From positions 1-64,000 of the forward strand of contig MHAZ01000019.1 of the NCBI GenBank assembly GCA_001803165.1: 64,000 nt of DNA, given 5' to 3'. Each line of letters opens with the position of its first letter. The first letter of the stretch is position 1. Shown in pieces: positions 24,867 to 44,002 of this stretch. The notes beneath the pieces were generated by a model. That model did no database searches, had not been told where the DNA came from, and saw only the letters and a list, made by a program, of their open reading frames with translations. The translations under genes were made by a program, and so were the position numbers. The DNA comes from Stygiobacter sp. RIFOXYC2_FULL_38_25. Its GTDB lineage: Bacteria > Bacteroidota > Ignavibacteria > Ignavibacteriales > Melioribacteraceae.

Positions 24867-25904
24867 CTAAAAAGCTATTCCGACGTCAAAGTATTGAATA
24901 TATTTCAGTCTTCCGTAATCGCCATAGGCATAATTAACTTTTATATTTAATCCTGATTTCATCTCAAAATTTAAGCCGGCACCCAAAGTAAAGCTTTGTT
25001 CACTATCAGCAAGGAAAAGCGATTTATAGCCGCCTCTAATAAAGAGCAATTCATCATAGGCTAGTTCTATACCTGCATTAAGGTACTCTACGTTATCATT
25101 AGGATGAGTTGCATCAAAAGCGGTTTTGATCCTAATGTATCTTGTTTTAACTACATCCATAGAAAATCCAATTCTAAAAGTAAGAGGAAGATCATACTGA
25201 TCCATTTCATATTTGGAAGGGATGTTATTTGGTCCGGTAAACGGGTCATCATCTGGATCGAAATTAATTTGAATATCTCTTCCATCCAGTCTCATTTTAG
25301 TTCCGAAATTAGTAACACTTGCCCCGATAACTAAATCATTAAATGGAGTTACATAATAAGTACCAACATCCAAAGCAAAGCCGCTTGCAGAGCTACTCCA
25401 TATTGATTCTTGAATGTACTTAGCATGAAACCCGATTGAGAATCTATCAGTAAGACTTCTAGCAAAACCAACACCAAAAGACACAGAGCCTGCATCCCAA
25501 AACTGCCCGTTACCTTCCGGATAATCAAATGTTCTTACTTTTTCTTCAGACACTCGCAGAGACGTGACTGTCATAAATAAAGTGCCGAGTGATTCCATGT
25601 TTAATGATGCAGCTGCAAAGTCGTAATTTACATCTGCCAGCCATTGCGAGTGATTAAAAGTTACCTGACCATTTCCTTTACTGATGGCAATGCCTGCTGG
25701 ATTATAATATGCTGCATAGATATCATCGCTAATTCCAACATAAGTACCGCCCATACCAAGAGCTCTGGCTCCGGGACCAATCTTTAAAAATTGACCGGCA
25801 GTTGTGCCAACCTTAGTAATATTTCTAAATAACTGAGAGTATAATTTATTATTACTAAATAAAATGAATACGCTTACTGTTATTAGTAAAAAAAACTTTC
25901 TCAT
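24867..25904 (-). CDS. PorV/PorQ-like outer-membrane barrel (module A)
   Basis: The 345-residue protein has a signal peptide (MRKFFLLITVSVFILFS) and the family opening GQFLKIGPGARALGMGGTYVGISDD, then AAYYNPAGIA, as seen in PorV/PorQ-type outer-membrane proteins and UPF0164. The rest alternates beta strands and ends in a C-terminal aromatic strand (FDVGIAF). PorV shuttles or holds T9SS substrates at the surface in the model systems. It is the last gene of a three-gene module with a large T9SS-type protein and a TonB-dependent receptor. The ATG at 25904 is used; a methionine three codons earlier is also possible. Confidence 0.8.
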   Translation of the reverse strand: MRKFFLLITVSVFILFSNNKLYSQLFRNITKVGTTAGQFLKIGPGARALGMGGTYVGISDDIYAAYYNPAGIAISKGNGQVTFNHSQWLADVNYDFAAASLNMESLGTLFMTVTSLRVSEEKVRTFDYPEGNGQFWDAGSVSFGVGFARSLTDRFSIGFHAKYIQESIWSSSASGFALDVGTYYVTPFNDLVIGASVTNFGTKMRLDGRDIQINFDPDDDPFTGPNNIPSKYEMDQYDLPLTFRIGFSMDVVKTRYIRIKTAFDATHPNDNVEYLNAGIELAYDELLFIRGGYKSLFLADSEQSFTLGAGLNFEMKSGLNIKVNYAYGDYGRLKYIQYFDVGIAF

Positions 25905-25978
25905 ACCCGGCATTCTCCGTAATATTCATTTAATTTTATTAGAAAAAGGTCAAAGCCTATTTCATGAAATCAGCTAAA

Positions 25979-28900
25979 CTATTTTATTACAGCAAACTTC
26001 CCAATTTTTTCGCCAACATTAGGAATGTAAACGTGATAAATATAGACACCATAAGCTATCCTCATTCCTTCAGAGCTTAAGAGGTCCCAACTTGCCATAC
26101 TTGTAAAATCGTCTTTTTCAATTGTATCAACTAATTCACCCGTAATAGTGTAAATTCTTATCGTACACTGTTTTGGAAGATTTCTGAACTGTAATTCTCT
26201 GTCTCCTCTGTTGGTAAAGGTTCTTCCGGGGTTTTCAGAAATGCTATATGCTACGTAAGGATTTGGAACTACATAAATATCATTTATACTCTGTTTCGTT
26301 ATTTCACTTTTTATTTCCCCTTTCTTGGTTTCAAAAACAAACAAATCGTTCTTTTCGAAAGGTTTTGTTGTTTTGATTTGATAAATATCACCATTCTTAG
26401 GAAGTTTGAGAACCGAGGCAGATTTATCTAAAGACAAAATAATTTCGTAGCTGGTAGCCGCATTTTTGGCGCCCTGCGGTTGAAGAACAATACCTTCTCC
26501 CCAGTCCCAACGTTTATTATTCTTTTTGCCGGGAACTAATTCGTCAATTACAAACGTAGCCGGGGCATTCGCTGTTAAATTATAAATCTTAAATGGCATA
26601 GTAAAACCGCCGGTTAGAGTTGAAACCGAATCGGCGTATTTCCACCTCCCGTTTGCCAAAGTATCAACATCATTCCATCTTATTTCCCAATCGGCACTTA
26701 TTTTTGTTCTTAAGGCTGCAACGCCAATCAAAGCCGGATAGAAAATAGTATCTTTAACCGTAACATCGCTGTTGTGTATAAACCGTGAGTTCTTCTCATC
26801 AAAATTCAACTCATCATTTTTAACAAACACTCTTAGTCCATCAAATGTCGGGTTAGCATCTTCATCGTTGAGAAGTTTACTTTGATAGACAGGAAAATAT
26901 CTATACTTAATTTTATATAATCTTCCTGAATTTAGATCGCCCGCTTTTTTCCCGGCAATCTGACCGGAATTGTAATTCACAATGTATTTGGACGGATTTA
27001 CTAAAGTATTAGACTCATCGAAAAGTTGAATGCTGTTCTTTTCAATATTTTTATGAGGCAAGTTTATAAGTACCGTATCTTTCGATTTAAATTCTGTCTC
27101 AACACCGGTAGAATCAAGTACACTATATGACAGAGCGTCATCAAAGTGAATTTTATAAAACTTATTGTCTACAGCAAGATCATCCATAATTTTGATACTA
27201 ATTTTCCCGGTCGCATCCGAATTTATTGATGTGGGCGTTCCATCAAGACCTACTTCCGGAGAATCCATGCCTCTGGAAACCGGACCGGGGGTTACTTCCA
27301 AAGTGTTAACATCAAAAATTAAATTCCCGGTTAATGGATCTTGTTGAATTACTGATTGTGTTTCTGTCGGTGGAAGATCCGGCGAACCATGATCGTAGGC
27401 AACAACAGCATAGTAATATGTAATTCCATTTTGAACCGTTGAATCTACATATTCGTGCTGCAATCCGGTGTTAGTGCCCAAGTTGAATTTTACTCCGCGA
27501 CCATCGTACTCTCTTTGTGCCAATCCCGAGTAATCATCTATCAAATCAAATTGTGCTCTTTTACCTGTATTCGGATCTAACAGAGCTTGACCAAGAAATG
27601 GGACACCGTTTGCATCAGTCACAGTATATACATCAGAGAAATTATAGTCTCTGCTGCGATAGATTTTATAACCTTCAAAATCTTTGTCCTGGGTTAATGG
27701 GTCTATAGAATCTTCCGATTTAGCATCCCAGTATAGTTTAACTTTTCCATCTTCCGGCACAGCTTTAACAATTGGTTTAGCCGGAGGTTGTGCAAATCTA
27801 TAATCTGCTTCAAGAATTCGTACAGAAGTAATAGAATTAAGAATCAGATCATCTCTGTTCTCTCCCATAATAATTGCCATAGAGAATCTCTGAGTTTCAC
27901 CTTTTTTCAAAGATAACGGACCGGTTGAAAAACAAAAGATATTATCGCCTTCCTGCTTTAGCAAAGCTTGCTCGGCATCAATTTCAGGTTTACTTAGCCA
28001 CTGCCATATTAATTCATCCTCTTTAGGAAAATTAGGAGTTCCGTATCTAGCTGCGGTAAACCCGGTTAAGCCCATCATATCCGATTCCGAAATATCTCTG
28101 TAACCAAAGTTCGGCTCTGAGCCAGCCCACTTATACCCGGCAAGTTGAATATCGCTTAAAGTGCTTGTTTCTTCTTTATCAAATATTCCATTGCTATTTA
28201 AATCATTATAAAACGCCTGAGATGGACTTCCATCCCCTTCGCCGTAATCCGGACCGGGATAGTTTGAGGATTCCGGACCTATTCCATCAATCCCGATATC
28301 ATGTTTTTCTACATCCCAGTCACCATCTTCATCACCAGACCATCTAGCTTTGGGAGCGCCATAAACCTTAGTATATTTTTCTACATTATAAATTCCGAAA
28401 GTAAGCGGTGTTGCAACTCCATCTATGTAAGTTCCCTTGCCATTAAACGGACTTTCATCCATTATTCCATCGTCGTCATCGTCAGCTAAGTTATTATCAA
28501 AAGAAGGAGATTCTAAAAACTTCCAGCCAAAGTAACCGGGAGTTTTACTACCCATTCCCTTAAAATCTGCATCCCATGCATAAACCATACTTCTGGCTCG
28601 TTGATCATAAGATTCTGCAAGGGGACCTTTAGGGGGAATAAAAAAAGCACGGTCATCAATATAATCTGCCGAGCCGCCTACATGCGGATCGCCAAACATT
28701 CCAATGTAAACTTTATCTAAATCTTTTTCTGATGTATTTGTAATTTGATAAACCATAAAAATAATATCTTCTGCCATTGGGTTATTAAACTGAAGAATTC
28801 TTACTGTGGATTCTAACCCCAGTCCTCCTTTTTTAAGATCGTTAGGGAACGGTTGATATCTATCAATATATTCATAATTTGTAAAATCATCTATTGCATA

Positions 28901-29527
28901 AAAAACTTCTTCGTCCGGTGCAGTTGCCATATCACCTAAAAAAGCTGGCCACAAATATTTTCCCGCTCCGGGTGAATACCAGTTTTCCGGCCATGAATCC
29001 GGTTTTCCATCACCATTTTTATCTTCAGCGTTTAGAGAAGCTATTTTATCTTGACTGTTATCTGAGTAACCTGGTCTTGGCAGCCAGCCATATTTCAAAG
29101 AAGCATCAGGACTGTAGTCACCTTCTGTAGATCTAACATGCGAATCGCTGATTATATGAAGCGTATCACCATTCACGTCTATAACTTCGGCTCCTGCAAT
29201 CAAACCGAATTCGAAGCCATACCCTAAACCATTCCAAACCAAATCCTCAACGTTAGACAATACACTTGGGGCACAAACAGATCCGTAATTATAAAGGATG
29301 CTTGTAATTTTATTACCCTTAATAGTTATATCCTTAATTTCTCGTTTATCGCCTACCACTTTGTTTAGCCTACTTCCTTTAATAGGACCAAAAACTTTCA
29401 ATGATTGTTCGGGAGTAAGATTTTTATAATAATAGTCATCCTTTTTGTCCGTAACCTGACCTAATGAAAGTCCTGAAAGAACGAAGAAGAAGTATAAAAG
29501 AAGTGAGATATTTTTCTTTGCCATCAT
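25979..29527 (-). CDS. large surface protein with T9SS-type C-terminus (module A)
   Basis: The 1182-residue secreted protein starts with a signal peptide (LLLYFFFVLSGLSLGQ). The central part (about 580-800) contains FN3-like regions (VPEDGKVKLYWDAKSEDS; YYYAVVAYDHGSPDLPP). Segments rich in DxDxDG (NAEDKNGDGKP, DDDDDGIMDE) resemble calcium-binding or dockerin-like motifs. The C-terminus has NDIYVVPNPYV, CTIRIYTITGELV and KFAVIK, a T9SS sorting domain variant shared with the module B protein. Such proteins are exported and kept on the surface. It lies 22 bases after the TonB-dependent receptor gene. The ligand or activity is unknown. Confidence 0.82.
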   Translation of the reverse strand: MMAKKNISLLLYFFFVLSGLSLGQVTDKKDDYYYKNLTPEQSLKVFGPIKGSRLNKVVGDKREIKDITIKGNKITSILYNYGSVCAPSVLSNVEDLVWNGLGYGFEFGLIAGAEVIDVNGDTLHIISDSHVRSTEGDYSPDASLKYGWLPRPGYSDNSQDKIASLNAEDKNGDGKPDSWPENWYSPGAGKYLWPAFLGDMATAPDEEVFYAIDDFTNYEYIDRYQPFPNDLKKGGLGLESTVRILQFNNPMAEDIIFMVYQITNTSEKDLDKVYIGMFGDPHVGGSADYIDDRAFFIPPKGPLAESYDQRARSMVYAWDADFKGMGSKTPGYFGWKFLESPSFDNNLADDDDDGIMDESPFNGKGTYIDGVATPLTFGIYNVEKYTKVYGAPKARWSGDEDGDWDVEKHDIGIDGIGPESSNYPGPDYGEGDGSPSQAFYNDLNSNGIFDKEETSTLSDIQLAGYKWAGSEPNFGYRDISESDMMGLTGFTAARYGTPNFPKEDELIWQWLSKPEIDAEQALLKQEGDNIFCFSTGPLSLKKGETQRFSMAIIMGENRDDLILNSITSVRILEADYRFAQPPAKPIVKAVPEDGKVKLYWDAKSEDSIDPLTQDKDFEGYKIYRSRDYNFSDVYTVTDANGVPFLGQALLDPNTGKRAQFDLIDDYSGLAQREYDGRGVKFNLGTNTGLQHEYVDSTVQNGITYYYAVVAYDHGSPDLPPTETQSVIQQDPLTGNLIFDVNTLEVTPGPVSRGMDSPEVGLDGTPTSINSDATGKISIKIMDDLAVDNKFYKIHFDDALSYSVLDSTGVETEFKSKDTVLINLPHKNIEKNSIQLFDESNTLVNPSKYIVNYNSGQIAGKKAGDLNSGRLYKIKYRYFPVYQSKLLNDEDANPTFDGLRVFVKNDELNFDEKNSRFIHNSDVTVKDTIFYPALIGVAALRTKISADWEIRWNDVDTLANGRWKYADSVSTLTGGFTMPFKIYNLTANAPATFVIDELVPGKKNNKRWDWGEGIVLQPQGAKNAATSYEIILSLDKSASVLKLPKNGDIYQIKTTKPFEKNDLFVFETKKGEIKSEITKQSINDIYVVPNPYVAYSISENPGRTFTNRGDRELQFRNLPKQCTIRIYTITGELVDTIEKDDFTSMASWDLLSSEGMRIAYGVYIYHVYIPNVGEKIGKFAVIK

Positions 29528-29548: not shown

Positions 29549-32395
29549 TTATTTAAAGATAATCGAAAATCCAAGCCTTACTTCCCGGGGTCTATTTACA
29601 CGCTCCGGGCGTTGAGAATAATACTGATCGAGATAGCCGGCATCAATCATGCCCTGGTCTCCTCTGGCAATCCTACTGCGCAAATCATCAAACTGATGTG
29701 AGTTAAGCTCTTGTTCAACATTTGATAATGCTTTGCCTGAACTAGCATAAACCGATCTATCGTTTTGAGTATCAAACACGTTATTTATATTAAGAAATAC
29801 TGAACACATCAAAGAACCAAATGAAAAAAACTTTTCGAATTTTAGATCAACTTCCCATTGCATAGATTTATTTGCAGAGTTTTGTTCATATGTTATTGTA
29901 GATAAACTTGGTGGTAAAGTAACAGTATAAGGTGTTCCTGCCTGAATATTATAGATAACTCCTAGAGTCCAGGAATTAGGTTCCGTAAGACTAACTGTAC
30001 CGTTTATTAAGTGAGACCGGTCAAAACTAAGAGGCACTAAAAAAGTTTCGGTTTGTTTTCCCGCTGCTTCGCTAAAGAACAGATCAACTTCCGGTTCCGT
30101 TCTATTTCCTTCTGCAATTTGGAAAGTATAATCTAATGTAGCAGCGAACATACCTTCTACAGAACGTCTTTTAAGAAAAGAAAGAGTAACCCCCCTAACA
30201 TTAGAATAGGCTAAATTTGTTAAAATTCTATATTGTCTAGCTTTTTCGGTATAGACCGTTTGCGTAAAAATGTAATCGCGTACATCCTTGTTGTAAGCGG
30301 TAAGATCAAATTTGAAATCTTCCGTTAGTTGCTGCTGAAGGCCTATTTCGTATTGTATTGATTTTTGCGGATTAACATTTGGATTACCGAAAGTAGGAAT
30401 TGTGGATACGTTAGCAACCCACCTTAAATCATTCTGGTATAGACTAGACAATGAACCAATTTGATAAAAATGTCCGTAAGAAAATCTAATAACGCCTCTA
30501 TCGGTTATTGGATATGAAACGCTGAATCTTGGCGACAACATATGTTTAACTTCAGCTGGTTTTAAATATTCATTCATATAACCCGACAAAGATTCTGTTA
30601 TATTTTTAGAAATATCATAATTGTAATCCGATGCAGCATCAAAGAATTCATATCTTAAACCGACGTTCAATATCAAAGTTTTGGCAAGTTCCATCTTATC
30701 GAGAACATAAACAGAGCCCTGTATTGGATTCTTATCATAGGTGGAAACACTTTGGATACCACCGCGTATGATATTAAGAGATTTGTCATATAAAAGATCG
30801 TTTACACTTAGTGACGTAACGGAAGGGACTCCGTTAATCTCTTTATATTTATAAAAATCTAGAGTAAACCCATTTCTTTTAACATTGTGTTTCCTAAATT
30901 CAAAGCCACCTCTAATCTCATGAATACCAAACATTTGCGAAATAATATCGCCTTTAATACTATAAGTGGTAGTTGCTCGTTTAACTATATCATTGTCTGT
31001 ACCGCCGGCATAATAGGTAGTATTTCCAATAGTTTTTCTATAAAAACTAGGCAAATATCCCGGATCATTCGGATCAGAATAAAGATATGATTCTGCTCTA
31101 TTATATGAATAAGAAGCTTTTAATGTATAAAACGTTTTGTCGTTTATTGTGTGAGTCATATCTAATGTATTTATTACACCTCTACTGTAATCCCATGCAA
31201 CACCATCAGGATTAAAAAGGTAGCTCCTATCGAAAGACCGAGATTTCGCTTTATTATAAACAATCTCATACTTTAACTTGATCTTCCCGCCAAATCTTTG
31301 ACTAATGTTAAATTGCAGGTTAAGTGAATTACTTGGATCCATCGCTACATATTGCATATCACCGTTAGGCAAACCATTGCTATTTGAGCTAAATGGATTA
31401 AATAAGTATGCGCCGGTTGCGTTACCAAATCTAGGATCGGTACTTTTAAAATTATCTGGCGTTAAGTAAGAATCACTTGGATTATATAATCTGTATCCGT
31501 AATAAGTACCTTTATAATTTTCTAAAATACCTGAAAAGAAAAATCTTGTTGTTTCGGTTATTGGAATTGGTCCTCCAAGCGTAGCTTCAACTCGACCAAC
31601 GTTTAGAGCATCTATTTCATCTAAGTTAGTAAACAAGTTTGTTCTAGAAGTTGCAAAATCGCCCCCATAACCTCTTGCGCTAAAAGCAAATTTTTCACCT
31701 CCCTCTTTTGTAACATAATTAACAACACCGCTTAAAGCATTACCAAATTCTGCACTAAACGTACCGGTCGATACCGACGCTTCCTGAACAGCATTAGTTG
31801 CAAGCCCAACAGCTCTAGCATTTCCATAAGGATCATTTAGCGAAAGTCCGTTTAAAGTATAAGCAACTTCATTTCCGTATCCACCGCGAATGTGAATGCT
31901 TCCATCATCACCAGTTACTACACCTGCTTGCAGTTTTATAATATCGCTGATATTATCAACCGGCAAAATGTCCACAGATTCAGATGTAATTGAAACGGTT
32001 GGATTTGTTAAATCCTGTCTGATGAGTGGATTTCTTTCCCCTTGAACAACAACTGCATTAAGAGTAACTTCGCCCGGAGACAAATTGAAACTTAACGACG
32101 TAGTAAACCCAACATTAACAGTAATAGATTTTGTTGTAACTTTTTGATAGCCGATGTACGAAGCTGTTACATCGTATTTACCGGGAGGCACATTTAATAT
32201 TACATAACCACCTTCCATATCTGTTGCAGCACCTGTTGTAGTACCCTCGATAACAACGTTTGCAAAAGGAATACCCTCGCCTGTAGAAATGTCTATAACC
32301 TTTCCCATAATTTTACCGGTTGATTGGGAATACGCGGGATTAACATGTGATAAGAAAACTGCCGCTGCAATAATTAATAAAAAACCTTTCTGCAT
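29549..32395 (-). CDS. TonB-dependent outer-membrane receptor (module A)
   Basis: The 948-residue receptor has a signal peptide (MQKGFLLIIAAAVFLS..AYS), a CarboxypepD_reg-like domain (about 25-110: GKIMGKVIDISTGEGIPFANV, GKYDVTASYIGY), a plug (about 115-230) and a 22-strand barrel ending in a C-terminal aromatic residue (SIIFK). It has no SusD-like partner in the window. It would carry a ligand through the outer membrane with TonB energy. The ATG at 32395 is used because GAGAGG lies eight bases ahead; a TTG five codons upstream is the alternative. It is the first gene of the module A operon. Confidence 0.9.
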   Translation of the reverse strand: MQKGFLLIIAAAVFLSHVNPAYSQSTGKIMGKVIDISTGEGIPFANVVIEGTTTGAATDMEGGYVILNVPPGKYDVTASYIGYQKVTTKSITVNVGFTTSLSFNLSPGEVTLNAVVVQGERNPLIRQDLTNPTVSITSESVDILPVDNISDIIKLQAGVVTGDDGSIHIRGGYGNEVAYTLNGLSLNDPYGNARAVGLATNAVQEASVSTGTFSAEFGNALSGVVNYVTKEGGEKFAFSARGYGGDFATSRTNLFTNLDEIDALNVGRVEATLGGPIPITETTRFFFSGILENYKGTYYGYRLYNPSDSYLTPDNFKSTDPRFGNATGAYLFNPFSSNSNGLPNGDMQYVAMDPSNSLNLQFNISQRFGGKIKLKYEIVYNKAKSRSFDRSYLFNPDGVAWDYSRGVINTLDMTHTINDKTFYTLKASYSYNRAESYLYSDPNDPGYLPSFYRKTIGNTTYYAGGTDNDIVKRATTTYSIKGDIISQMFGIHEIRGGFEFRKHNVKRNGFTLDFYKYKEINGVPSVTSLSVNDLLYDKSLNIIRGGIQSVSTYDKNPIQGSVYVLDKMELAKTLILNVGLRYEFFDAASDYNYDISKNITESLSGYMNEYLKPAEVKHMLSPRFSVSYPITDRGVIRFSYGHFYQIGSLSSLYQNDLRWVANVSTIPTFGNPNVNPQKSIQYEIGLQQQLTEDFKFDLTAYNKDVRDYIFTQTVYTEKARQYRILTNLAYSNVRGVTLSFLKRRSVEGMFAATLDYTFQIAEGNRTEPEVDLFFSEAAGKQTETFLVPLSFDRSHLINGTVSLTEPNSWTLGVIYNIQAGTPYTVTLPPSLSTITYEQNSANKSMQWEVDLKFEKFFSFGSLMCSVFLNINNVFDTQNDRSVYASSGKALSNVEQELNSHQFDDLRSRIARGDQGMIDAGYLDQYYSQRPERVNRPREVRLGFSIIFK

Positions 32396-32577
32396 TATTG
32401 TGCCTCTCAAAAAGAATTTAAGACATGTTTTTTACAAATAACATACGCTTGCAATTGAAGAATCAAAATAGAAGAGACTGTTTCAAAAGCAATTAATGGG
32501 AAACAAAAAACATTCATTATTCAAATTTTCCACACTTTTTACTTTTGAACCAGCCTCTTAGTAGTGCCTAGTAATTT

Positions 32578-34500: not shown

Positions 34501-34875
34501 TGGGTCTCCTTTTATTGTTAGTATTATTTTTAGGATATATAGACTATCCAATTTAGAGCAAAGCAATACTTCAAAATTTTATAAATCCATCAATAATCAG
34601 CTCAGCCATTTTAGAGAGAAGAATTCGTCTTTTTAATTTTATATCTCTTTTCTTCACAAATCAACTTTTCAAAAGGATTTTTCTCAACGAATCAAAAACA
34701 ATACTTTAGTCTGTCAGTCAAAAAATATTGAATGCTAAATTTTTCATTTTAATTTAACAATAAACAGAGTTCTTTTGCACCAAAAAGATTTAAATAAAGC
34801 ACGCTTTGATTTTAATGCTACGGCATAAGGTCCACATTTCACTACATCGAATAAGTTTTATAAGACAATCGCTAA
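34501..34875. other. non-coding stretch
   Basis: Upstream of the FG-GAP gene. I see no gene here; the ribosome binding site AAGGAG of that gene lies at its lower end. The 34876-35022 segment that follows is a pseudogene fragment. Confidence 0.5.
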
Positions 34876-35161: not shown

Positions 35162-36460
35162 TTACTTAACAAGCAACATTTTCTTAGAAAGCGAAACTTT
35201 ACCTGTGTTAAGTTTATAAATATAAATCCCGCTTGAAAGATTGGAAGCGTTAAAATCTACCTGGTAAGAACCGGAACTCTTAACTTCATTAACAAGTGTT
35301 GCAACTTCTTGTCCCAAAGTATTATAAACCTTTAAGCTAACAAATCCTTGCTCAGGAATTGAGAACTTAATGTTTGTTGTTGGGTTAAATGGATTTGGAT
35401 AGTTCTGCGATAAATCATAACCAGTTGGAATTTCATCAAGCTTTTCAATTCCAGAGCCGGTTTTGGTAAATTTAAATAATCTGGCAAAAGCAGTTCCGAA
35501 TAATCCAACATAAGCAGTTTTACCATCTTTACTGAAGCAAATACCACGAGGTAATTCATCTGCAGCCGCAGGAACGATAGGAGAAGCAAGAGTAAAGCTA
35601 TCAACAAGTTGTTTTGTTGTCACATTTACACCATACCAAGTCAAGTGAGTATATTTTTTCTCAGTTCCTCTTTTATCATTGGATACCCAGAACAAACCTG
35701 TAGCTGGATTCCAGGCTGCTGATTCAACTGACATTCCTTTCAGAAGCGAGTCAGCTAATGTGAAGGTTCCAAATTCGTCAGGTCTCTTATATACAAAGAT
35801 ACCATGTGTGCCAGTGAAAGGAGTCCAATAAATTGTGTTACCATCTTTAGAAACCTTCATTGTTCTAGCAATTGCAGGAGGTCCCGTTACTGCTGTTCCA
35901 AGAAGTGTCAGATTTTTATCATACATAACTATTCTTGCATTAGCAGATCCGTTGCCTACAACCGGACCTACGAAAACTGTACCATCTGTTGAAACTGCTG
36001 GACCGGCTGGAGACGAACCAACATCAGTACCAACAGTTGTATTCCGAGCTAGCCCTTGATATGTTTTATAATCAATTTTGATGATTTTACCTGTAGATAT
36101 AAAGTAAATATTGCCATCACCATCTTGACCTAGACCACGACAGCCGGAAGTACCGCCTCCCTTTCCGAGGGTATCTAAAACTCCATTGGTATTAACTATA
36201 CCAATAGTGTCAACTTTTGAACCATCAGGATGGAACACAAAAATTGGAGAACCGTTTTTTATCGTATCTCCTTTCGCTTTAATAAAGTTGGACTTGTAGT
36301 AACTTGCTTGCCATATTTTGCCGTCAGGTGTAACCTCAATTCCATGAGTTCCGCCTTTACGCAGATCGTTTGGCCAAGGACCTTCATATTTCCACTGAGC
36401 AATGCTGATGCTAGCGGTCATCACAATTAGAGCAAATAAATATGTAGCTTTTTTTAACAT
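35162..36460 (-). CDS. secreted beta-propeller protein with T9SS sorting domain
   Basis: The 432-residue protein has a signal peptide (MLKKATYLFALIVMTASISIAQ). Residues 25-340 contain repeated strands of a SMP-30/NHL-like propeller (GGTHGIEVTPDGKIWQASY, GCRGLGQDGDGNIYFIST, RGICFSKDGKTAYVGLFG). The last 80 residues are a type A T9SS sorting domain (YPNPFNPTTNIKFSIPEQ ... LSKKMLLVK). The ATG at 36460 has AGGAGG ahead; the ORF could extend 40 codons upstream but that would overlap the next gene. It sits at the end of the module B operon and may be part of it. Confidence 0.83.
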   Translation of the reverse strand: MLKKATYLFALIVMTASISIAQWKYEGPWPNDLRKGGTHGIEVTPDGKIWQASYYKSNFIKAKGDTIKNGSPIFVFHPDGSKVDTIGIVNTNGVLDTLGKGGGTSGCRGLGQDGDGNIYFISTGKIIKIDYKTYQGLARNTTVGTDVGSSPAGPAVSTDGTVFVGPVVGNGSANARIVMYDKNLTLLGTAVTGPPAIARTMKVSKDGNTIYWTPFTGTHGIFVYKRPDEFGTFTLADSLLKGMSVESAAWNPATGLFWVSNDKRGTEKKYTHLTWYGVNVTTKQLVDSFTLASPIVPAAADELPRGICFSKDGKTAYVGLFGTAFARLFKFTKTGSGIEKLDEIPTGYDLSQNYPNPFNPTTNIKFSIPEQGFVSLKVYNTLGQEVATLVNEVKSSGSYQVDFNASNLSSGIYIYKLNTGKVSLSKKMLLVK

Positions 36461-36524
36461 ACTGCCTCCTATTGTTATTTGTGTTTCATTAGTAATACAG
36501 TTTTCCTTTTTAATCTTGTATTTA

Positions 36525-37730
36525 TTAATTCCCATAATATGGGGAACTGAGTTTTTGCATATCAACACGCATAAGAGCATGTAATGTAGCTCCGGCTTCT
36601 ATGTACTCTCTGATATAAAATAAATTCTTCTTTGTTCCCCAAGCCATTGATCTTGCCAATGGGGATATTGCACCAGGATAAAAAATTGAGGCAGTGCCAG
36701 CAGTGTTTACGCTAATAAAGGAATCGGTTTGATTTGTACCGATAATCAATTCTCCATCAGCAGCAAATGTAATTGCGCCAACTTGAACTTTATTCAAACC
36801 GTATACTGTCCCAATATCGTAATACTTTTCCTTTGCGCCAAGGGCAGTATTAGAAGTAATCTTATATCTGTAGATTGCTTCTTCAGTTGTGTTCTTTCCG
36901 GCAACATAGACATACCCATTATAAACTCTGATTGCAGAAACCGTATGATCAATAGCGAAAGCAGTTGTAACTTTTGCCGGAGTAACACTAAAAAGATTTC
37001 CGCCACTTCCCGCAGCCCATATGTTTTTATTAGCATCAAAATCTAAAGCGATAATTGCGTTACCAGTTGGAAATGTAACAAAAGTAGCACTTGCCTTCCC
37101 CGCTTCAACTTGAGATATTAGTCTTAAATTTCTTGTTCCATACAAGATATTGTTCGGACCCATTTTCATATCAAAGAAAAATGATTCGCCACCTTTTGGC
37201 GCCCAATCTGTAACTGTAAGCTGCGAACCATCACTCGTAATTTTTTTAATCCCTTTGTTATTCAAATAGACAAACACGTTTTCATTTTTATCAACAGCAA
37301 CTGTCATTGGGTCATCTATACCTTTTGCAAAAGCGAAATAAACACCAACCGCTTCCAACAAATTGTATTTAACTACATTACTAAAATCCTCAACACCTTG
37401 AACAGCTATTTTTGTGTCTAAATCGTTAGCAATTTTGGCTGGAGCCTTCACAATTAGCTGTGTTGCGGAAGCTTGCAATACGGTTGCTTTAGCAGTGCCG
37501 AAATAAACAAAGTTATTTTCCTTCACCGAAGAAAAGTTTGAACCGTTTATTGTTATTTCGGTAACACCGGCTAACGCTTCCTTATCCGGCACAATGCTTG
37601 TGATAGCCGGAGTTGCACCCGGGTCTTCTTCATTATATAAGCTTGGCGCAGCGTCTTGGTTACAACTGCTTAATAATGCAGTGGAAGCAATTATTATTAC
37701 TAAAGAAAAAAATTGTATTAGCTTTTTCAT
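36525..37730 (-). CDS. IPT/TIG-domain lipoprotein with propeller
   Basis: The 401-residue lipoprotein has a lipobox (ASTALLSSC) and an IPT/TIG domain (about 35-120: PAITSIVPDKEALAGVTEI, FVYFGTAKATVLQAS). The rest (about 130-400) holds NHL-like strands (VTEWAP, FDANKNIWAAGSGGN, ITFAADGELIIGT). TIG domains act in extracellular binding and in SusE/SusF-like and SusD-partner lipoproteins in Bacteroidota. It lies between the PorV-like gene and the secreted propeller gene, so it could be the surface ligand binder of module B. ATG at 37730 chosen to give a normal lipoprotein signal. Function is inferred. Confidence 0.78.
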   Translation of the reverse strand: MKKLIQFFSLVIIIASTALLSSCNQDAAPSLYNEEDPGATPAITSIVPDKEALAGVTEITINGSNFSSVKENNFVYFGTAKATVLQASATQLIVKAPAKIANDLDTKIAVQGVEDFSNVVKYNLLEAVGVYFAFAKGIDDPMTVAVDKNENVFVYLNNKGIKKITSDGSQLTVTDWAPKGGESFFFDMKMGPNNILYGTRNLRLISQVEAGKASATFVTFPTGNAIIALDFDANKNIWAAGSGGNLFSVTPAKVTTAFAIDHTVSAIRVYNGYVYVAGKNTTEEAIYRYKITSNTALGAKEKYYDIGTVYGLNKVQVGAITFAADGELIIGTNQTDSFISVNTAGTASIFYPGAISPLARSMAWGTKKNLFYIREYIEAGATLHALMRVDMQKLSSPYYGN

Positions 37731-37778
37731 ATTTGGTACCAATAATTTTGTCAAATAAATGAACTATTTGCATTTCAG

Positions 37779-38798
37779 CTAAAAAGTGAAATTGAATGTA
37801 AATCTATGTACGTCTTCAAAAATTCCGAATGGCTGATAAGCGTAATCAAATCCTACATTCAAACCTTTGTCATTTCCTTTAATTCCAAAACCGGCTGTAA
37901 AATGATTTTCATCTGAGGGAGAAATAAAACCGGCTCTCAAAGAGAATATTTTAAGAAACGTGTATTCAGCACCCACAGATATTTGTTCGCTGAAATCGCG
38001 CGGATGTGATGCATCTACAGAAACCAGCAATGAATGTTTACTCTTATCAACATTTATTAAATCCATCGCGTCCATAGAAAGACCAATTTTGAATGTAAGA
38101 GGAAGCTGGAAGGTTTCTCTCTTGTATTTTAATTCTGCAGAGAAGTTTCTAACGCTCATACCAAAGTTTAAGCTTTTGAATCCGGTTCTATACAGAATAC
38201 CAAAATCATAAGCTACCGAGCTCTTGGAATTTTCCTCATACTCATATCCGTATGTAGTAGCTGAAGCATCAAAAAGATCTACAACACTGCTGCCAAGGTT
38301 CTGCTTGATGTATCTAACACTGCCGCCTACTGCAAATTTTGTAGAGAGCTCTTTTGCGTAGCCAATTCCTAAAGCATAAGCAGTTGGAGAATATGTTCCA
38401 ACGTCAAGATATCCTTGATCGTTGTTAGCAACTATGGTTCCGTCGAAACGCCCATAATCTACAGATACAAAGGAAACTCCGAAAACTCCGTAATCTCCTC
38501 CGGATGGAGCAAAAGCAGCGGCAGCATGGAGATAATCGATGTCAGCAATCCATCCAACATATCCAAAAGAAACGGAAGCAAAATCTTTTAGCGAAGCCAT
38601 TGTTGCCGGATTGTAAAAAATTGCCGAAGCTGAGCCCAAATCAACAGAGGTAACAGCTTCCGAAAAGCCGGTTGTTCTCGCATCGGTCGAGACACTTAAA
38701 AACTTCATACCGGTCTGCGCAAGTTTTTTATCTTGAGCGTTTACTGTATGAACAAGTAATCCCAAAATCAGTACTGTAATTATTGTATAATTTTTCAT
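37779..38798 (-). CDS. PorV/PorQ-like outer-membrane barrel (module B)
   Basis: The 339-residue protein has a signal peptide ending NAQ and the opening GMKFLSVSTDARTTGFSEA, AIFYNPATMA; it then alternates strands and ends in a terminal Phe (FTFNFTF). Same family as the module A protein at 24867. Such proteins work with the T9SS to place or hold cargo at the surface. It is between the T9SS-sorted protein at 38818 (19 bases) and the TIG lipoprotein. Confidence 0.82.
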   Translation of the reverse strand: MKNYTIITVLILGLLVHTVNAQDKKLAQTGMKFLSVSTDARTTGFSEAVTSVDLGSASAIFYNPATMASLKDFASVSFGYVGWIADIDYLHAAAAFAPSGGDYGVFGVSFVSVDYGRFDGTIVANNDQGYLDVGTYSPTAYALGIGYAKELSTKFAVGGSVRYIKQNLGSSVVDLFDASATTYGYEYEENSKSSVAYDFGILYRTGFKSLNFGMSVRNFSAELKYKRETFQLPLTFKIGLSMDAMDLINVDKSKHSLLVSVDASHPRDFSEQISVGAEYTFLKIFSLRAGFISPSDENHFTAGFGIKGNDKGLNVGFDYAYQPFGIFEDVHRFTFNFTF

Positions 38799-38817: not shown

Positions 38818-40899
38818 TTATCTGATAACAGCAAATTTGGCTATATGATTTTGTCCGGTTTTCTTATCAGTAATAACCGCAATGTAAATACCACTAACAA
38901 TTATTTGGTTAGATGAAGTTACCTGATACCAGTACTCATCACCGCTGCCGTTTGTGTGTTCAATTGTTTTAATCAACTCACCTAATTCGGAGTAAATTCT
39001 AATTGTACATTCACCGGGAATATTGTAGAAAGCAATCTTATCTTCATCAATGGTTCCAGGGAAACGAACTTTAGCACCTGCCGAAGCATTGAATGGATTC
39101 GGAACAATTCTAATATCGGTTAATTTATCGCCGGCTTGTCTTTGCAGGTTTGCCGGATCGTAAGTTTGCGTATAATATCTTCCGCTTTCAAGTTTACCGG
39201 CAGGAGTTCCCGGACCGGCAGCAGTTGCAGCACCTACAGCTGTTATGTAATAAAAGTAATTGAATCCGCGAATCACACTTTTATCGTCATAAGTTCTTTC
39301 ACTTGCACTCTTAGTTTCATAAATCATCGTGTAGTTACTATCAACATTACCAAGAGCACGGTAAATTTTAAATGATGTAGGTGGATTAGGATCGGTTGCA
39401 GCGACTTCCCACTTTAATGATATTCTATCACCGCCGGAATTAACATCGAATGAAGTTGGAGGCATTGGCGGCTGCGGAATTTTCCAGTTAGCGTTGAAAG
39501 CTTCTGTAGCTCTCTTAAATGTTAGGAATAAGGAATCTCTACCCTGGAATACAACTTGGTTTTTAGCTGAGGCTGTAATCTGTCCTTTTTTATATTTAAC
39601 TCCGGTATCAACCTGGAGCTTTCTACCAATACCATTCATTGCTTCTGCTACAACAATTCTAACACTTTCGCCCGGCTTTAATGTATATGGACCGTAGCCG
39701 GTGTTATAAGAAATACCACCGGAAGCATTGCCAACGTTTGGCGCATTTTTTTGATTTACAAAATCACCGCTTGGCTCTACAGCATCTGCATGTCTTGGAG
39801 TTTTATGTCCGGCTGCCATTAATGCGTATTCTTGAGTCATTCTATCTTTGTTTAATGCATTAGCACCGGCTAATAAAAGAGGATGATCTGAATTAGCATA
39901 ATCGGTTGTTCTTGGCTGGCTCAGGTCGTCAACTTTTTCAGTTGCGGATTTATCTGCGTATAAAGTTACAGTTCCAAGAAATTGAGCTCCGCCTAATCTG
40001 CCAATTGTATCAGCTTTATCGTTATAGACTGCTGCTGTACTGTTTAATGCCCAAATTGGTCCGCCTATATTATCATAAGTAACATCCTTACCGGGAAAGT
40101 ATCCGTGCCATGAGAAAGTTGCACGGTATTTTTCATTAGCGGGATCTACTTTAACGCCATCGCCGCGAGTATCATTCATCGTGTTGATACCCCAGCCGGC
40201 TGCGTTACCAACTACATATCTAACAGATTTGTTTACAGAATTTCTGAAAGTGAACCAGAAATAGGCATCTTTAATTGTGTTGTTCGGAAGTTCTATTTCG
40301 GAATCGGAATCTGTATTGCCGGTATTTGTAAAAGTGTACTCGTAAACTATGTAGTTATCATTGTACTGTTGAGCAAATTGGAAAATCTTTCTGTTTACAG
40401 TTATACCAAGTTGAGAGTTAATCACATTATCAATCTGTCTATCATAAGGTAACGTAGCGTCAATCTTATCAATCTCAACATTTTTTTGGTAAGAGAGATT
40501 TCCATTTACAGATACCGCAGTAGGAGTAAATTTAGCTTTCAATTCCATTTTCATTGGATACAAAGCATAGAACTGCGGAGCTCTCGGTCCGGCAGTAACA
40601 ACTTTGTATGGATAGAACTCGCCTTTTTCATCTGTAAAATCTTTGGCGCCTATCCACATACCGCGTGCTGCCTGAGCATCTTGATAATTATAAATGGCAG
40701 GCCACTGCATACCGAATTGCTGTGTCTTTAAGAAACCGGCTTCTTCCAATTCCGATCCGATTTCGGAATACCAGTTATGCAAAGACCCGGCAGACATCCA
40801 CACGTTTTTAAATTGTCCGTAAGTAACCAATTGGGTTCCGAGAAATAAAATAATTACCAACGGAAGAAATTTTTTCATTCTGTAAAAAATTGAGTTCAT
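38818..40899 (-). CDS. surface protein with T9SS-type C-terminus (module B)
   Basis: The 693-residue secreted protein has a signal peptide (MKKFLPLVIILFLGTQLVTYG after a short leader). Residues ~520-600 form an FN3 domain (MPPTSFDVNSGGDRISLKW, NYFYYITAVGAA). The C-terminus reads TDIRIVPNPFNAS, ECTIRIYSELGEL and KFAVIR, the same variant sorting domain as the module A protein. Starting Met at 40899 has GAGGGA ahead; the methionine seven codons on begins the signal proper. It follows the TonB-dependent receptor gene by 28 bases. Ligand unknown. Confidence 0.83.
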   Translation of the reverse strand: MNSIFYRMKKFLPLVIILFLGTQLVTYGQFKNVWMSAGSLHNWYSEIGSELEEAGFLKTQQFGMQWPAIYNYQDAQAARGMWIGAKDFTDEKGEFYPYKVVTAGPRAPQFYALYPMKMELKAKFTPTAVSVNGNLSYQKNVEIDKIDATLPYDRQIDNVINSQLGITVNRKIFQFAQQYNDNYIVYEYTFTNTGNTDSDSEIELPNNTIKDAYFWFTFRNSVNKSVRYVVGNAAGWGINTMNDTRGDGVKVDPANEKYRATFSWHGYFPGKDVTYDNIGGPIWALNSTAAVYNDKADTIGRLGGAQFLGTVTLYADKSATEKVDDLSQPRTTDYANSDHPLLLAGANALNKDRMTQEYALMAAGHKTPRHADAVEPSGDFVNQKNAPNVGNASGGISYNTGYGPYTLKPGESVRIVVAEAMNGIGRKLQVDTGVKYKKGQITASAKNQVVFQGRDSLFLTFKRATEAFNANWKIPQPPMPPTSFDVNSGGDRISLKWEVAATDPNPPTSFKIYRALGNVDSNYTMIYETKSASERTYDDKSVIRGFNYFYYITAVGAATAAGPGTPAGKLESGRYYTQTYDPANLQRQAGDKLTDIRIVPNPFNASAGAKVRFPGTIDEDKIAFYNIPGECTIRIYSELGELIKTIEHTNGSGDEYWYQVTSSNQIIVSGIYIAVITDKKTGQNHIAKFAVIR

Positions 40900-40927
40900 T
40901 CTTCCCTCAAAATTTTCTAATAAGTTA

Positions 40928-43900
40928 TTAGTTAATATCATAATTAATCTTTATTCCCCAGAAGATTGATCTTGGGTTCAAAAATGTTGTGTAATGTAAA
41001 TTAGGCATATCTATGTAAGACTTATTCTTCTTCCACTCTTCCTTCTGAGAATCACTTGCGTTTTCATCCCATGCATGGTAATCGCCGGTTCTTATATCGC
41101 CAGGTTTATCATCGCCGGGAACAAAAGTATAAGTACTAGCAAACTGTCTGTACTCTTCAGGTAAGTGAAGCGATTTCATGTAAGCATCGTAATCATTCAA
41201 ATCATAAAATCCGGCTCTGTAACCCATCTGTTGTAAGTTGAGCGCATTATACATGTCGGCAAATAGCTCAATATTTAATGGACCAAAATCAAACGCTTTG
41301 GAAATTCTTAAATCCAAACCGTAAGTATCTTTCCAGCGAATATTGTTTTCGAATAATGGTTTTACACCGCCAGGACCTGTCCATGAGAAGTAATTACCGG
41401 CAGACCATGAAGCGAGTATGTTCAGTCTTAAATCTTCGAGAGGTTTAACACCGAATATTTCCGGTCCCCAATTCATTGGTGTAAATAAGTCTATGTTTGC
41501 TCTTGCATATGGCTGAGGCAAAGGTTTGTTCTGTTCAAAGTAAGATTTGTTTCTTTGATACTCTCTTTGAATTGCCGGATTCTGAGAATTATTCGGCAAT
41601 CCAAAATTACCACTTGTTGATACCTGGTAAGTATAGTTAATAAACCCTCTAACCCACTCGCCTCTGTTCTTTGTAACTGTAATTTCGAAACCTCTAATGT
41701 CTTGATAACTATCCGGTTCCGGAATTGAATAGCTTACAGAGTTATCGCGGCTGGTATAAGTAACAAGTCTCGGTTGAGAAGAAATATCTTTATAGTAGCC
41801 GGCAATTCTTAACAGATATTCATCAAATAAATTGTGTTCGTAACCCAATTCATAAGCAACTGTCTTTGGAAGCGGATTGTTTGGGTCTGCTAATCTTGTA
41901 ACGGCCTGCGTTACAGAACTTCTTCTAAGCAAATATAGATTTTCCGGAATCGGCATTGATCTAAAGTGTCCGTAGTTGAAGAACAATTTACTGTCAATAG
42001 AAATTGGGAATGCAATACCAATTCTTGGACTAACATTTAAGATAGCTTTTGTGGTTGCTTTTGCTAAAAGTGTATCTATTCCGTTTGATAAAGCTCCGGA
42101 TAATGCTTTAGTGTAAGGATCATCAATCACATACCAATCGCCGTTAGCATTGCTGTAATCGAATCTTACACCAATGTTAGCTATCATGCCTTCGAACTCA
42201 AGTTTGTCTTGAATATAGAAAGCAGCTCTGATTGGAAATGTATGCCATTTGGATTGAGTATCGTTGCTTGGCAGAGATGGTTCTCTTAATGCATAGTTTA
42301 CGGCGTTGTCTGTATAAACAAATTCCAAACCGGCTTTAACGTTATTGAATTTATCAAGCTGGCTAACAAAATCAATTCTACCAGTCCATGCGCTAACTTT
42401 ACTGCTGTCTCTCGAGTTACTGAAGCCCAAACCCATGTTCATTGATGAACCAATACCGGAACTTGTGCCGCTGTAGTAACCGTAAGGAGCTGCATCATAG
42501 AAAACACCGCCAAAATTATTTGACTTAGAAATATCTCTGGCTGCACCGGGATTTGTTTCATACTTAGTTCCAAACTGGCTAATGTTTACATCATAATAAG
42601 TGTTGGAATTAATTACATGAGTAAACTTCAAACCGAAACCGTTACTAAATTTTTGAGATGGAGCCCAGTAATCCGTAGCATATACGCGGGAATCAAGATA
42701 GCTTGCACCGGCTCTAATATCTAACTCGCCTGCAATTCCGCCCGGTGAATTGAATAAGCCGGGACCGCCGCTTCTTGAACTTCCGGTTCCCCATTGTTTA
42801 CCGGCAATACCTTCAATAGATAATTTCATTCCCGATTTCAAATCTGAAATAACTTTGAATTGGAAATTATAATCTCTGTATGCGTCTGTTGACAAAGGAA
42901 TGAAATACATGTTTTGTGTACTTCTGTAAGAAGTAATAAATGTAAGATCGCCAAGATATTCACCTATGAACGGAACCGGACCGCTGAAACTAACATCTGC
43001 ATCGTAATCAGGATCGGTAATATCTAACTGTCTTCTGTGCTGCCACATAAATAATCTTTGCGCGGCTTCCGGACTTAAATCATTGGTTGGATCGTTATCA
43101 GATAACAATTGTTGCGAAACTGTGTTCCAACCTCTAAACGGTTGATATTGAGCTTTTGTGTAAGCATCCCAAGCACCGTTATCAGTTCCTGTCCATGCTA
43201 CAGCATCATCAAGGTAAGGTCTAATCCAATAAGAGTTATAAGAATTAACCGCATCTCCAAAATGTTTTCTTGCAGCCGGGCGGTATCTTCCTAAAAATGA
43301 AATTGAATACTTTTTCTTATCACCGTCTTTGGTAACAACGTTAACTAAACCGGAGCGAATGTTTCCAAACTCTGCATTGAATCCGCCGGTTTGCACTTGA
43401 ATTTCTTTTACCGAAGTAAAACTGATTCCGGTGTAAGGTGTATTATCTCTTTCATCGCGAAGCGTCATACCGTTAACAACGAATGCAGTTTGATCTGCGC
43501 CGCCGCCTCTGATAACAGGACCGGAAGAACCGGCAACAACACCAGCTTGTAAACCAATAACACTTGCAACACTTGCAACAGGCAAGTTTTCAATTTCTTC
43601 CACGTTAAGGTTAACACGGCTGGAAGCAACGTCTCTATGAACGATTGGTTGCTGAGCAACAACAACCACTTCGCTGCCAAGAATAGCTTCTTCGCTTAAT
43701 GAAATGTCGAGGTTAGTAGTCTGGTCAATATTAACTCTTACATTAGTAATCGTTGCCGGTGCATAGCCAATATATGAAGCCTTAACGGTATATGTTCCCG
43801 GAGAAACATTTTGAATAACATAGTAGCCTTCTACGTCTGTAGAAGCTCCAATGTTAGTTCCGGTTAGCATCACGGTTACACCAACAAGAGGTTCTTTTGA

Positions 43901-44002
43901 TTTAGAATCAATGATGAGACCAGAGATTTTTCCTGATGTTCCTGCCATTAGTTGCGATACATAGAACAAGGTAAGAATTGAGAGGAGTAACAATTTTCTC
44001 AT
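40928..44002 (-). CDS. TonB-dependent outer-membrane receptor (module B)
   Basis: The 1024-residue receptor has a signal peptide (LLLLSILTLFYVSQLMAG), a CarboxypepD_reg-like domain (about 18-110: GKISGLIIDSKSKEPLVGV, GTYTVKASYIGY), a plug (about 115-230) and a beta barrel. It is a paralogue of the receptor at 29549. The start ATG at 44002 has AAGGAG in front. First gene of the module B operon, followed by the T9SS-type protein, PorV-like barrel, TIG lipoprotein and perhaps the propeller protein. The substrate is not known; no SusD is seen. Confidence 0.9.
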   Translation of the reverse strand: MRKLLLLSILTLFYVSQLMAGTSGKISGLIIDSKSKEPLVGVTVMLTGTNIGASTDVEGYYVIQNVSPGTYTVKASYIGYAPATITNVRVNIDQTTNLDISLSEEAILGSEVVVVAQQPIVHRDVASSRVNLNVEEIENLPVASVASVIGLQAGVVAGSSGPVIRGGGADQTAFVVNGMTLRDERDNTPYTGISFTSVKEIQVQTGGFNAEFGNIRSGLVNVVTKDGDKKKYSISFLGRYRPAARKHFGDAVNSYNSYWIRPYLDDAVAWTGTDNGAWDAYTKAQYQPFRGWNTVSQQLLSDNDPTNDLSPEAAQRLFMWQHRRQLDITDPDYDADVSFSGPVPFIGEYLGDLTFITSYRSTQNMYFIPLSTDAYRDYNFQFKVISDLKSGMKLSIEGIAGKQWGTGSSRSGGPGLFNSPGGIAGELDIRAGASYLDSRVYATDYWAPSQKFSNGFGLKFTHVINSNTYYDVNISQFGTKYETNPGAARDISKSNNFGGVFYDAAPYGYYSGTSSGIGSSMNMGLGFSNSRDSSKVSAWTGRIDFVSQLDKFNNVKAGLEFVYTDNAVNYALREPSLPSNDTQSKWHTFPIRAAFYIQDKLEFEGMIANIGVRFDYSNANGDWYVIDDPYTKALSGALSNGIDTLLAKATTKAILNVSPRIGIAFPISIDSKLFFNYGHFRSMPIPENLYLLRRSSVTQAVTRLADPNNPLPKTVAYELGYEHNLFDEYLLRIAGYYKDISSQPRLVTYTSRDNSVSYSIPEPDSYQDIRGFEITVTKNRGEWVRGFINYTYQVSTSGNFGLPNNSQNPAIQREYQRNKSYFEQNKPLPQPYARANIDLFTPMNWGPEIFGVKPLEDLRLNILASWSAGNYFSWTGPGGVKPLFENNIRWKDTYGLDLRISKAFDFGPLNIELFADMYNALNLQQMGYRAGFYDLNDYDAYMKSLHLPEEYRQFASTYTFVPGDDKPGDIRTGDYHAWDENASDSQKEEWKKNKSYIDMPNLHYTTFLNPRSIFWGIKINYDIN

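Follow-up and report, generated by a model that had tools for sequence, protein, structure and literature searches.

PorU is held by PorV, and PorZ is held by PorQ. In SusC/SusD and RagAB, a TonB-dependent receptor with a carboxypeptidase-regulatory domain is encoded beside a large surface partner, and glycan genes and sensor regulators accompany them in part of the loci. For the type B CTD proteins (SprB-SprF, PG1035-PorP), the abstract of a published account describes the surface protein as presumably held by a PorP/SprF barrel of its own (PMC9143113), and an excerpt of another states that genes for such proteins and barrels are usually clustered (PMC10202324). BamG is described, in passages of two papers, as a FadL-like barrel that holds the surface lipoprotein BamH beside BamA (PMC12611786, PMC12578637).

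The unit analyzed here occurs twice in the window, that is, the whole stretch of 64,000 nt under study, and consists of a TonB-dependent receptor (T), a secreted surface protein (S) and a PorV/PorQ-family barrel (P). It shares with SusC/SusD and RagAB the receptor with its carboxypeptidase-regulatory domain, the adjoining gene for a large partner and, at part of the loci, the setting among glycan genes and sensor regulators. In contrast to SusCD, however, S is not SusD by Pfam, lacks a lipobox in both window copies, is predicted to be all-beta (type a) and bears a T9SS-type tail; there is a third partner, P, and T falls below the SusC/RagA cut-off. The trio resembles the PorU:PorV and PorZ:PorQ pairs in combining a long-CTD secreted protein with a PorV/PorQ-family barrel, and the S CTD profile finds both PorZ and PorU, but S lacks a C25 domain, has ten paralogues here and always has a receptor adjacent in the loci examined. 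A surface protein with its own barrel is also the theme of the type B proteins, and P of trio b (P b) even exceeds the Pfam PorP_SprF cut-off, whereas P prefers the PorV/PorQ model (199.3 bits) and the S CTD is related to type A. The likeness to BamG-BamH lies in a FadL/PorV-like barrel that keeps a large protein at the surface beside a second barrel; yet BamH is a lipoprotein, the central barrel is BamA, and P of trio a (P a) scores only 26.4 bits with the BamG model (cut-off 250). By the families tested, the trio is not SusCD. No earlier account of it was recognised among the top-listed matches in open PMC papers, surveyed by titles and abstract starts, and it is absent from those passages of the Caldithrix genome paper that mention TonB receptors (PMC5317091).

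Two trios in the window

The genes of both trios lie on the minus strand and are transcribed in the order T-S-P (Table 1). A preliminary description had seen two blocks of receptor, T9SS protein and PorV-like barrel, and both are indeed present, with corrected boundaries: the start of the second block had wrongly been placed at 36525, where a separate gene for an IPT/TIG-domain protein lies, and the barrel gene spans 37779-38798. The same description had called the module duplicated, which holds insofar as trios a and b are paralogous; they are old paralogues and not a recent copy. T a and T b share 26% identity (E 1e-66), and P a and P b 27% (E 3e-30), whereas S a and S b are alike only in the C-terminal ~104 aa (37%, E 5e-13) and in another stretch of ~107 aa (24%, E 5e-6). 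A recent tandem duplication of one block is ruled out by these values, lower overall for S than for T and P, together with the joint divergence of the three proteins reported below.

Table 1. Trio genes and neighbouring genes of the window
Feature	Position	Strand	Evidence
P of trio a, PorV/PorQ-family barrel	24867-25913	-	NF033709 199.3 bits; Pfam PorV 40.4
S of trio a, secreted multidomain protein	25979-29527	-	structure model, fold matches, CTD profile
T of trio a, TonB-dependent receptor	29549-32410	-	Pfam CarbopepD_reg_2 73, Plug 34.1, TonB_dep_Rec_b-barrel 86.9 bits
T9SS-tailed FG-GAP protein, immediately upstream of the trio a receptor	32578-34566	-	
Protein with canonical T9SS type A sorting tail	35162-36580	-	PF18962 47.2 bits
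IPT/TIG-domain protein, lipoprotein-like signal (by eye)	36525-37754	-	TIG 45.7 bits
P of trio b, PorV/PorQ-family barrel	37779-38798	-	NF033709 199.3, Pfam PorV 30.5, PorP_SprF 32.1 bits
S of trio b, shorter form, CTD as in type a	38818-40941	-	hhalign vs type a
T of trio b, TonB-dependent receptor	40928-44038	-	CarbopepD_reg_2 and Plug
T9SS-tailed glycosyl hydrolase-like 10 protein, upstream of trio b	44122-46479	-	GHL10 251.2, PF18962 42.6 bits
Response-regulator-like gene	46736-47380	-	translation, by eye
Sensor kinase	47439-50543	-	Reg_prop, Y_Y_Y, HisKA_3

Conservation and joint divergence of the trio

The T-S-P trio was found ten times in the genome, the window copies included. Because the genome has 34 matches to the Plug domain and 14 to the PorV/PorQ family over cut-off, and because the order is kept elsewhere, ten trios are more than chance would give. 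The distance matrices of T, S and P across these trios correlate with r of 0.913, 0.891 and 0.887, values not reached in any of 20000 permutations; the three proteins have diverged together.

The search of relatives that had been proposed as a check likewise gave a conserved order. Among the 79 loci that best matched S of trio a in 580 relatives, which is not a random sample, P follows S in all 79, with one other gene intervening in a single locus (L104), and T precedes S in all 75 that have enough contig left. The top matches to type b show T-S-P in all 29 loci from other genomes and in one own locus, and the trio genes are tightly spaced. The trio is thus a co-inherited, conserved unit. In a survey of S matches the counts are floors, since two candidates were scored per genome; several families within the window's own class gave only weak matches (1e-13 to 1e-28), which counts against the uptake reading proposed below. 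In the most far-reaching form of that reading, which as a whole is about as likely as not, the module would have been duplicated to serve different glycans and other ligands, and would have spread in this way through Ignavibacteria, Neomarinimicrobiota, Calditrichota, KSB1 and their relatives.

Receptor and barrel families

T b reaches 79.8 bits with OMP_RagA_SusC (TIGR04056; cut-off 368.25), and T a is not listed for this model. The loss of gene order and the pairing of the receptor with SusD, which the preliminary description had named as evidence against the module, were not seen: the genome contains two SusD (PF07980) matches, at C19:72803 and C18:12522, each beside another receptor, and neither S nor P lies near them within the 12 and 11 kb examined. 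As neither window S has a Pfam match and the PF07980 matches lie elsewhere, the reading of S as a SusD relative was rejected.

Both P proteins far exceed the cut-off of 90 for NF033709 and pass that of Pfam PorV (27 bits), and both stay below the equivalog cut-offs for PorV (77 for P a and 89.5 for P b; cut-off 250) and PorQ (79.4 and 85.5; cut-off 220). P b passes the PF11751 (PorP_SprF) cut-off of 22.3 and remains under that of TIGR03519 (32.8 bits, cut-off 90.55), P a being listed for neither; a PorP/SprF assignment of P is not favored, though P b passes the Pfam cut-off, since the PorV/PorQ model fits far better. In a model of a P homologue (locus L033), the predicted fold is nearest to PorV (Z 33.7 and 33.0), compared with 29.6 for FadL.

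The S protein

Neither window S gave a Pfam match at E 0.01, PF18962 included, and no lipobox cysteine was seen by eye in their signal regions. The model of type a S comprises a predicted N-terminal beta-supersandwich, an Fn3-like stretch (by eye), a further beta region and the CTD. Its fold matches (VIA rows) cover almost only residues 34-717, so that no fold is assigned to the stretch of about 720-1050, and its N-terminal part resembles the supersandwich domains of GH94/GH116 and galactose mutarotase with Z of about 14-20. With Foldseek alone the supersandwich matches were weak (E 5.6e-4 and worse), and they ranked high only in the second comparison. The fold is predicted for type a S only; aligned with it by hhalign, type b S matches in the CTD (E 1.7e-33) and the middle region (E 4.7e-11), and the sole overlap in the N region spans 37 columns (E 1.7e-5).

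The genome has T9SS machinery (SprA over cut-off), and a gene for a PorU-like C25 peptidase adjoins one for a PorV-family barrel. S had been described as a T9SS-sorted protein with its own barrel; the T9SS-related end and the PorV/PorQ-family P bear this out, whereas the CTD is not of the ordinary cargo type. The window S tails reach 13.3 and 16 bits with TIGR04183 (cut-off 23), below the type A threshold; compared as profiles, the S CTD and type A tails do prove related (hhalign 96.1%, E 3.1e-9). Searched against the PDB, an S CTD profile (A4, built on nine of the ten own S, excluding L018) matched only PorZ (E 5.4e-5) and PorU (0.058). In contrast, a control profile built from canonical tails of this genome recovered 8glj and 8glk, which are cargo CTDs, along with three further chains, and neither PorZ nor PorU; the solved CTDs of RgpB and HBP35 were found by neither profile. 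S as an ordinary sorted cargo is therefore disfavored. From PNP to the end the S CTD measures 90-100 residues, as against 78-86 in 89 of the 92 canonical tails of the genome (10-25 in the other three); a passage of the literature gives 96 and 108 residues for the uncleaved CTDs of PorZ and PorU, and 67-88 for cleaved ones (PMC11285876). Because the CTDs of PorZ and PorU are kept, the profile matches suggest that P may be a lasting anchor of S. Modelled by AlphaFold2 as a single read-through chain, the CTD and P gave a pTM of 0.84 as the sole readout.

Glycan context

The parallel with polysaccharide loci drawn in the preliminary description agrees with a glycan-type context that recurs: glycan-type genes adjoin five of the ten own trios, including all four of type b, and are present at 24 of the 79 homologous loci (sugar ABC, LacI, GH130; Pfam names from one representative per neighbour cluster). 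The sugar-ABC loci are not independent, since they look largely like one orthologous locus type. Some trios adjoin genes that serve the degradation of alginate, beta-glucan or pectin, or genes for sugar ABC importers, and no clear glycan gene was found among the few neighbours examined beside the other five own trios (window trio a, L011, L012, L013, L018). The L011 trio lies beside peptidase genes, that of L018 beside genes for a lipid A acyltransferase and a GWxTD protein.

Proposed function and alternatives

We propose, with a probability of about 0.57, that the trio is a SusCD-like uptake module in which the T9SS displays S on the surface and an own PorV-like barrel holds it there; it may be an undescribed alternative to SusCD for nutrient uptake. 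S would be exported via Sec and then through the T9SS translocon, and its long CTD would stay uncleaved and docked on P, by analogy with PorU on PorV and PorZ on PorQ. The N-terminal part of S would thereby be kept beside or above the opening of T, a contact that we infer, and would bind oligosaccharides, or other ligands in some paralogues, passing them to T as the TonB-dependent importer; uptake would be completed by enzymes and inner-membrane transporters that the locus encodes. The P b score above the Pfam PorP_SprF cut-off counts against this reading, as does the confinement of the predicted supersandwich to type a S when all four own type b trios have glycan-type neighbours.

The relation of the S CTD to type A tails, the PorU-like C25 peptidase and the fact that PorV itself carries cargo, according to passages of two papers (PMC5562754, PMC10994853), could also be accommodated if P were only a specialised T9SS carrier, the CTD being cleaved, S being LPS-anchored or released, and T being linked for a separate reason. 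We regard this as unlikely: the CTD profile finds two proteins that retain their CTDs, the window tails are under the type A cut-off, and with 146 T9SS tail matches against 14 PorV/PorQ-family barrels over cut-off in the genome most ordinary cargo can have no private barrel, whereas each trio S has one. The alginate, beta-glucan and pectin genes and the sugar importers, the Plug and carboxypeptidase-regulatory domains in both window T, and the supersandwich predicted for type a S, which is the fold of many carbohydrate proteins, argue against a surface-assembly or secretion unit, serving a surface layer or S itself, in which T is no nutrient importer. Such a unit seems rather improbable, even though half of the own trios have no glycan gene found alongside, PpiC-type chaperone genes and the GWxTD/lipid A locus adjoin some trios, and BamG-BamH-BamA, as far as the cited passages go, illustrates that FadL-like barrels also serve assembly (PMC12611786, PMC12578637). 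Finally, a GH174 fucanase matches model residues 36-549 of type a S, as might be expected if S were an enzyme at the surface (a glycan hydrolase or lyase) tethered beside the importer, and not a binder; this is very improbable, given that the helical catalytic barrel of the matched enzymes was not seen in S, that most enzyme matches presumably fall on accessory beta domains, and that the two window S have no Pfam enzyme family.

If the uptake-module reading is correct, many bacteria that are relatives of the well-studied Bacteroidia without belonging to them would import polymers with such a machine, which would join TonB-dependent import and type IX secretion, two processes treated as separate. 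PorV/PorQ-family barrels would gain a general role as private anchors, and glycan loci could be annotated by the trio in SusD-poor genomes such as this one, with ten trios and two SusD matches. The trio would also make testable a suggestion, in an excerpt of an earlier paper, that cognate PorV-like barrels shield CTDs from cleavage (PMC10202324).

Other genes of the window

Sensors with Reg_prop, Y_Y_Y and HisKA_3 domains, such as the one encoded beyond trio b, are common at polysaccharide loci. The IPT/TIG-domain protein is possibly a surface glycan-binding protein. Of the 88 trio loci that entered the clustering, 25 contain members of the BLAST cluster of the FG-GAP protein.

Two trios in the window and ten in the genome

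Each of the two trios of the window, a and b, encodes a TonB receptor (T), a large secreted protein (S) and a PorV/PorQ-family barrel (P), transcribed in that order. The preliminary description of the barrels as PorV-like was confirmed by profile scoring, P a and P b each reaching 199.3 bits with NF033709 (cut-off 90). Both stayed far under the PorV and PorQ equivalog cut-offs; P a exceeded the Pfam cut-off for PorV (40.4 versus 27 bits), and P b those for PorV (30.5 bits) and PorP_SprF (32.1 versus 22.3 bits). Both receptors carry Pfam CarbopepD_reg_2 and Plug domains. No Pfam match at E 0.01 was obtained for S a or S b, which also scored below the threshold for the T9SS type A tail (13.3 and 16 bits, respectively, versus 23). 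The interval between the trios contains one IPT/TIG gene and genes for two proteins with canonical T9SS tails, and upstream of trio b lie genes for a GHL10 protein with a T9SS tail, a Reg_prop/Y_Y_Y sensor kinase and, as assigned by eye, a response-regulator-like protein.

In the 4.4-Mb Stygiobacter genome, NF033709 gave 26 matches, 14 of them over the cut-off, and 19 further regions around the matches were examined. Ten trios were found, identical in order and strand throughout; the remaining four barrels over the cut-off lie in regions L009 (adjoined by a C25 peptidase), L014, L019 and L020. T, S and P of each trio agreed in best-hit subtype, six trios being type a and four type b, after those of the window. 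Pairwise distances among the ten trios were correlated (T-S 0.913, S-P 0.891, T-P 0.887), and none of 20000 permutations gave values as high; for the six type a trios alone, the observed value was reached by 2, 1 and 24, respectively, of 720 permutations including the identity.

Trios of the Stygiobacter genome with their analyzed neighbours, and other located features
Feature	Coordinates	Strand	Neighbours or content
Trio, window a	window 32410-24867	-	FG-GAP
Trio, window b	window 44038-37779	-	GHL10, sensor kinase
Trio, L010			GH16 with malectin, CBM9; two genes apart GH3, MFS, ROK kinase
Trio, L011			M16, M28/M1 peptidases
Trio, L012			PpiC
Trio, L013			CotH, kinase, YkuD
Trio, L015			alginate lyase with Hepar_II_III_C, SDR, MFS, SASA esterase
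Trio, L016			two pectinesterases
Trio, L017			BD-FAE, Gfo/Idh/MocA
Trio, L018			GWxTD, lipid A acyltransferase
FG-GAP protein	window 32578-34566		T9SS tail
L009 (C4) gene row	L009 2042-13547		four genes
FadL/TodX-type barrel	L015 9855-11363		after the trio
PpiC-type gene	L104 11093-12484		between S and P

The L009 row comprises the genes for the C25 peptidase, the PorV-family barrel, a 1027-aa protein ending in KIAVIK that has no Pfam match, and a protein with PD40 and weak peptidase-MA matches. The 1027-aa protein is another CTD-like protein (CTD, T9SS-related C-terminal domain) adjoining a PorV-family barrel. The genome has a large repertoire of sorted proteins: with 150 of 163 candidates scored, the T9SS tail family PF18962 was matched at least 146 times at E 0.001.

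Conservation of the trio in other genomes

When the six type a S proteins were used as queries against the genome collection, at least 589 stretches matched, and relatives are encoded in 580 of those listed. The 79 loci retained have titles that refer to Ignavibacteria/Melioribacteraceae, Neomarinimicrobiota, Calditrichota, KSB1 and Kryptonium, among others. In a six-frame search, 71 of the 79 passed the distance limits for T and P. As for the other eight, L048, L070, L074 and L089 start inside S or where S begins; in L071, L099 and L103, S is directly flanked by T and P, and these loci fall outside the limits solely because the S match is partial; one gene separates S from P in L104. In L060, T is present in two frames. 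Therefore, P follows S in 79/79 loci and T precedes S in 75/75 reaching far enough, some T or P being cut by the contig end, which bears out the conserved order that the preliminary description had proposed to look for in relatives.

Type b S, searched in 148 genomes of the phylum, matched in 98, often by the tail only; all 30 type b loci listed, including L017 of the Stygiobacter genome itself, showed T-S-P, with P about 1 kb off in L115. Of 296 genomes from the phylum, at least 162 matched type a S at E 0.001 and, counted from match rows, at least 108 did so below 1e-50; in several families of the class to which the Stygiobacter genome belongs, the matches reached only 1e-13 to 1e-28. Gene spacing is tight, S and P often overlapping by 4 bases (with starts set mechanically). 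Taken together, these results indicate that the trio is a real and old unit that has multiplied within genomes, and it is almost certainly a functional unit (probability about 0.97; this and the gradings of display, CTD retention and import below were set by judgement).

In L035 and L103 a second trio directly follows the first, the locus end cutting its P and S, respectively. The FG-GAP gene of the window lies directly upstream of T of trio a, and members of its cluster have the same position in L028, L030, L031, L032, L034, L035 and L043; the FG-GAP protein may thus belong to this type of locus as its fourth component. PpiC-type peptidyl-prolyl isomerase genes of one BLAST cluster were observed near trios in L104 and 14 other loci; these isomerases might help S or T folding.

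The tail of S and its predicted position

With the limit at E 10, a profile of nine S tails of the Stygiobacter genome (L018 left out) matched only PorZ (5.4e-5) and PorU (0.058) in the PDB. A control profile of ten canonical T9SS tails gave five matches, two to cargo domains (8glj, 8glk) and three to other chains, with neither PorZ nor PorU among them. The two profiles are related to each other (96.1%, E 3.1e-9). From the PNP motif to the end, type a S measures 95-100 residues (n = 66) and type b S of this genome 90-94 (n = 4); canonical tails of this genome and the homologous loci measure 78-86 in 89 of 92 cases (10, 23 and 25 in the remaining three). In the literature, PorU and PorZ tails are described as longer and not removed (PMC11285876), PorU:PorV and PorQ:PorZ subcomplexes are reported (PMC5562754), cognate PorV-like barrels are proposed to shield tails against cleavage (PMC10202324), and PorP-like barrels are reported to bind type B proteins and suggested to anchor them by doing so (PMC9143113).

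A model of a CTD-P read-through chain from L033 (pLDDT 87.4, pTM 0.84), about two thirds of which is P, suggests from its pTM that the position of the CTD is predicted with some confidence; its barrel was closest to PorV (Z 33.7, 33.0), followed by FadL (29.6) and BamG (25.2). We consider it very likely that the T9SS displays S, and probable that the CTD stays on P.

The S a model (1158 residues, 66 sequences, pLDDT 83.7, pTM 0.74) gave PorZ as top Foldseek match (E 2.8e-6), though with a TM of 0.09 of the query, and then supersandwich proteins (E 5.6e-4 and worse). In a second look with VIA, the N-terminal part was best matched by a beta-supersandwich: dextran dextrinase (Z 20.4, 261 residues, 3.0 A), GH94 phosphorylases and GH116 (Z about 18 each) and galactose mutarotase (about 14). 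The supersandwich is predicted for type a S only. When type b S was aligned with type a, the CTD (E 1.7e-33) and a middle region (E 4.7e-11) matched, and the N region did so over 37 columns only (E 1.7e-5).

Comparison with SusCD and gene neighbourhood

PF07980 gave two SusD matches in the Stygiobacter genome (27.5 and 26.6 bits), each directly after another receptor and with no S or P in the 12 and 11 kb examined around them. These receptors scored 96.8 and 82.5 bits with the T profile; uncut T of type a loci score about 740-1010. Nine of the 34 Plug matches of the genome belong to trios, the T of L015 not being among the 34. The trio is best read as an importer resembling SusCD, with the place of the SusD lipoprotein taken by T9SS display together with a private PorV-like anchor.

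Import of glycans by at least part of the trios is probable. Among the neighbours analyzed (one to four each), no clear glycan gene was found for L011, L012, L013, L018 and window a. At least one gene from five sugar-related BLAST clusters is present in 24/79 homologous loci (solute-binding protein in 20, two permeases in 19 and 15, LacI in 12, GH130 in 11). SBP_bac_8 had only 1-7 matches per genome in 14 genomes, which were picked for having that gene at the trio locus. In L015, the alginate-type locus, the trio is followed by an additional outer-membrane gene, which encodes the FadL/TodX-type barrel.
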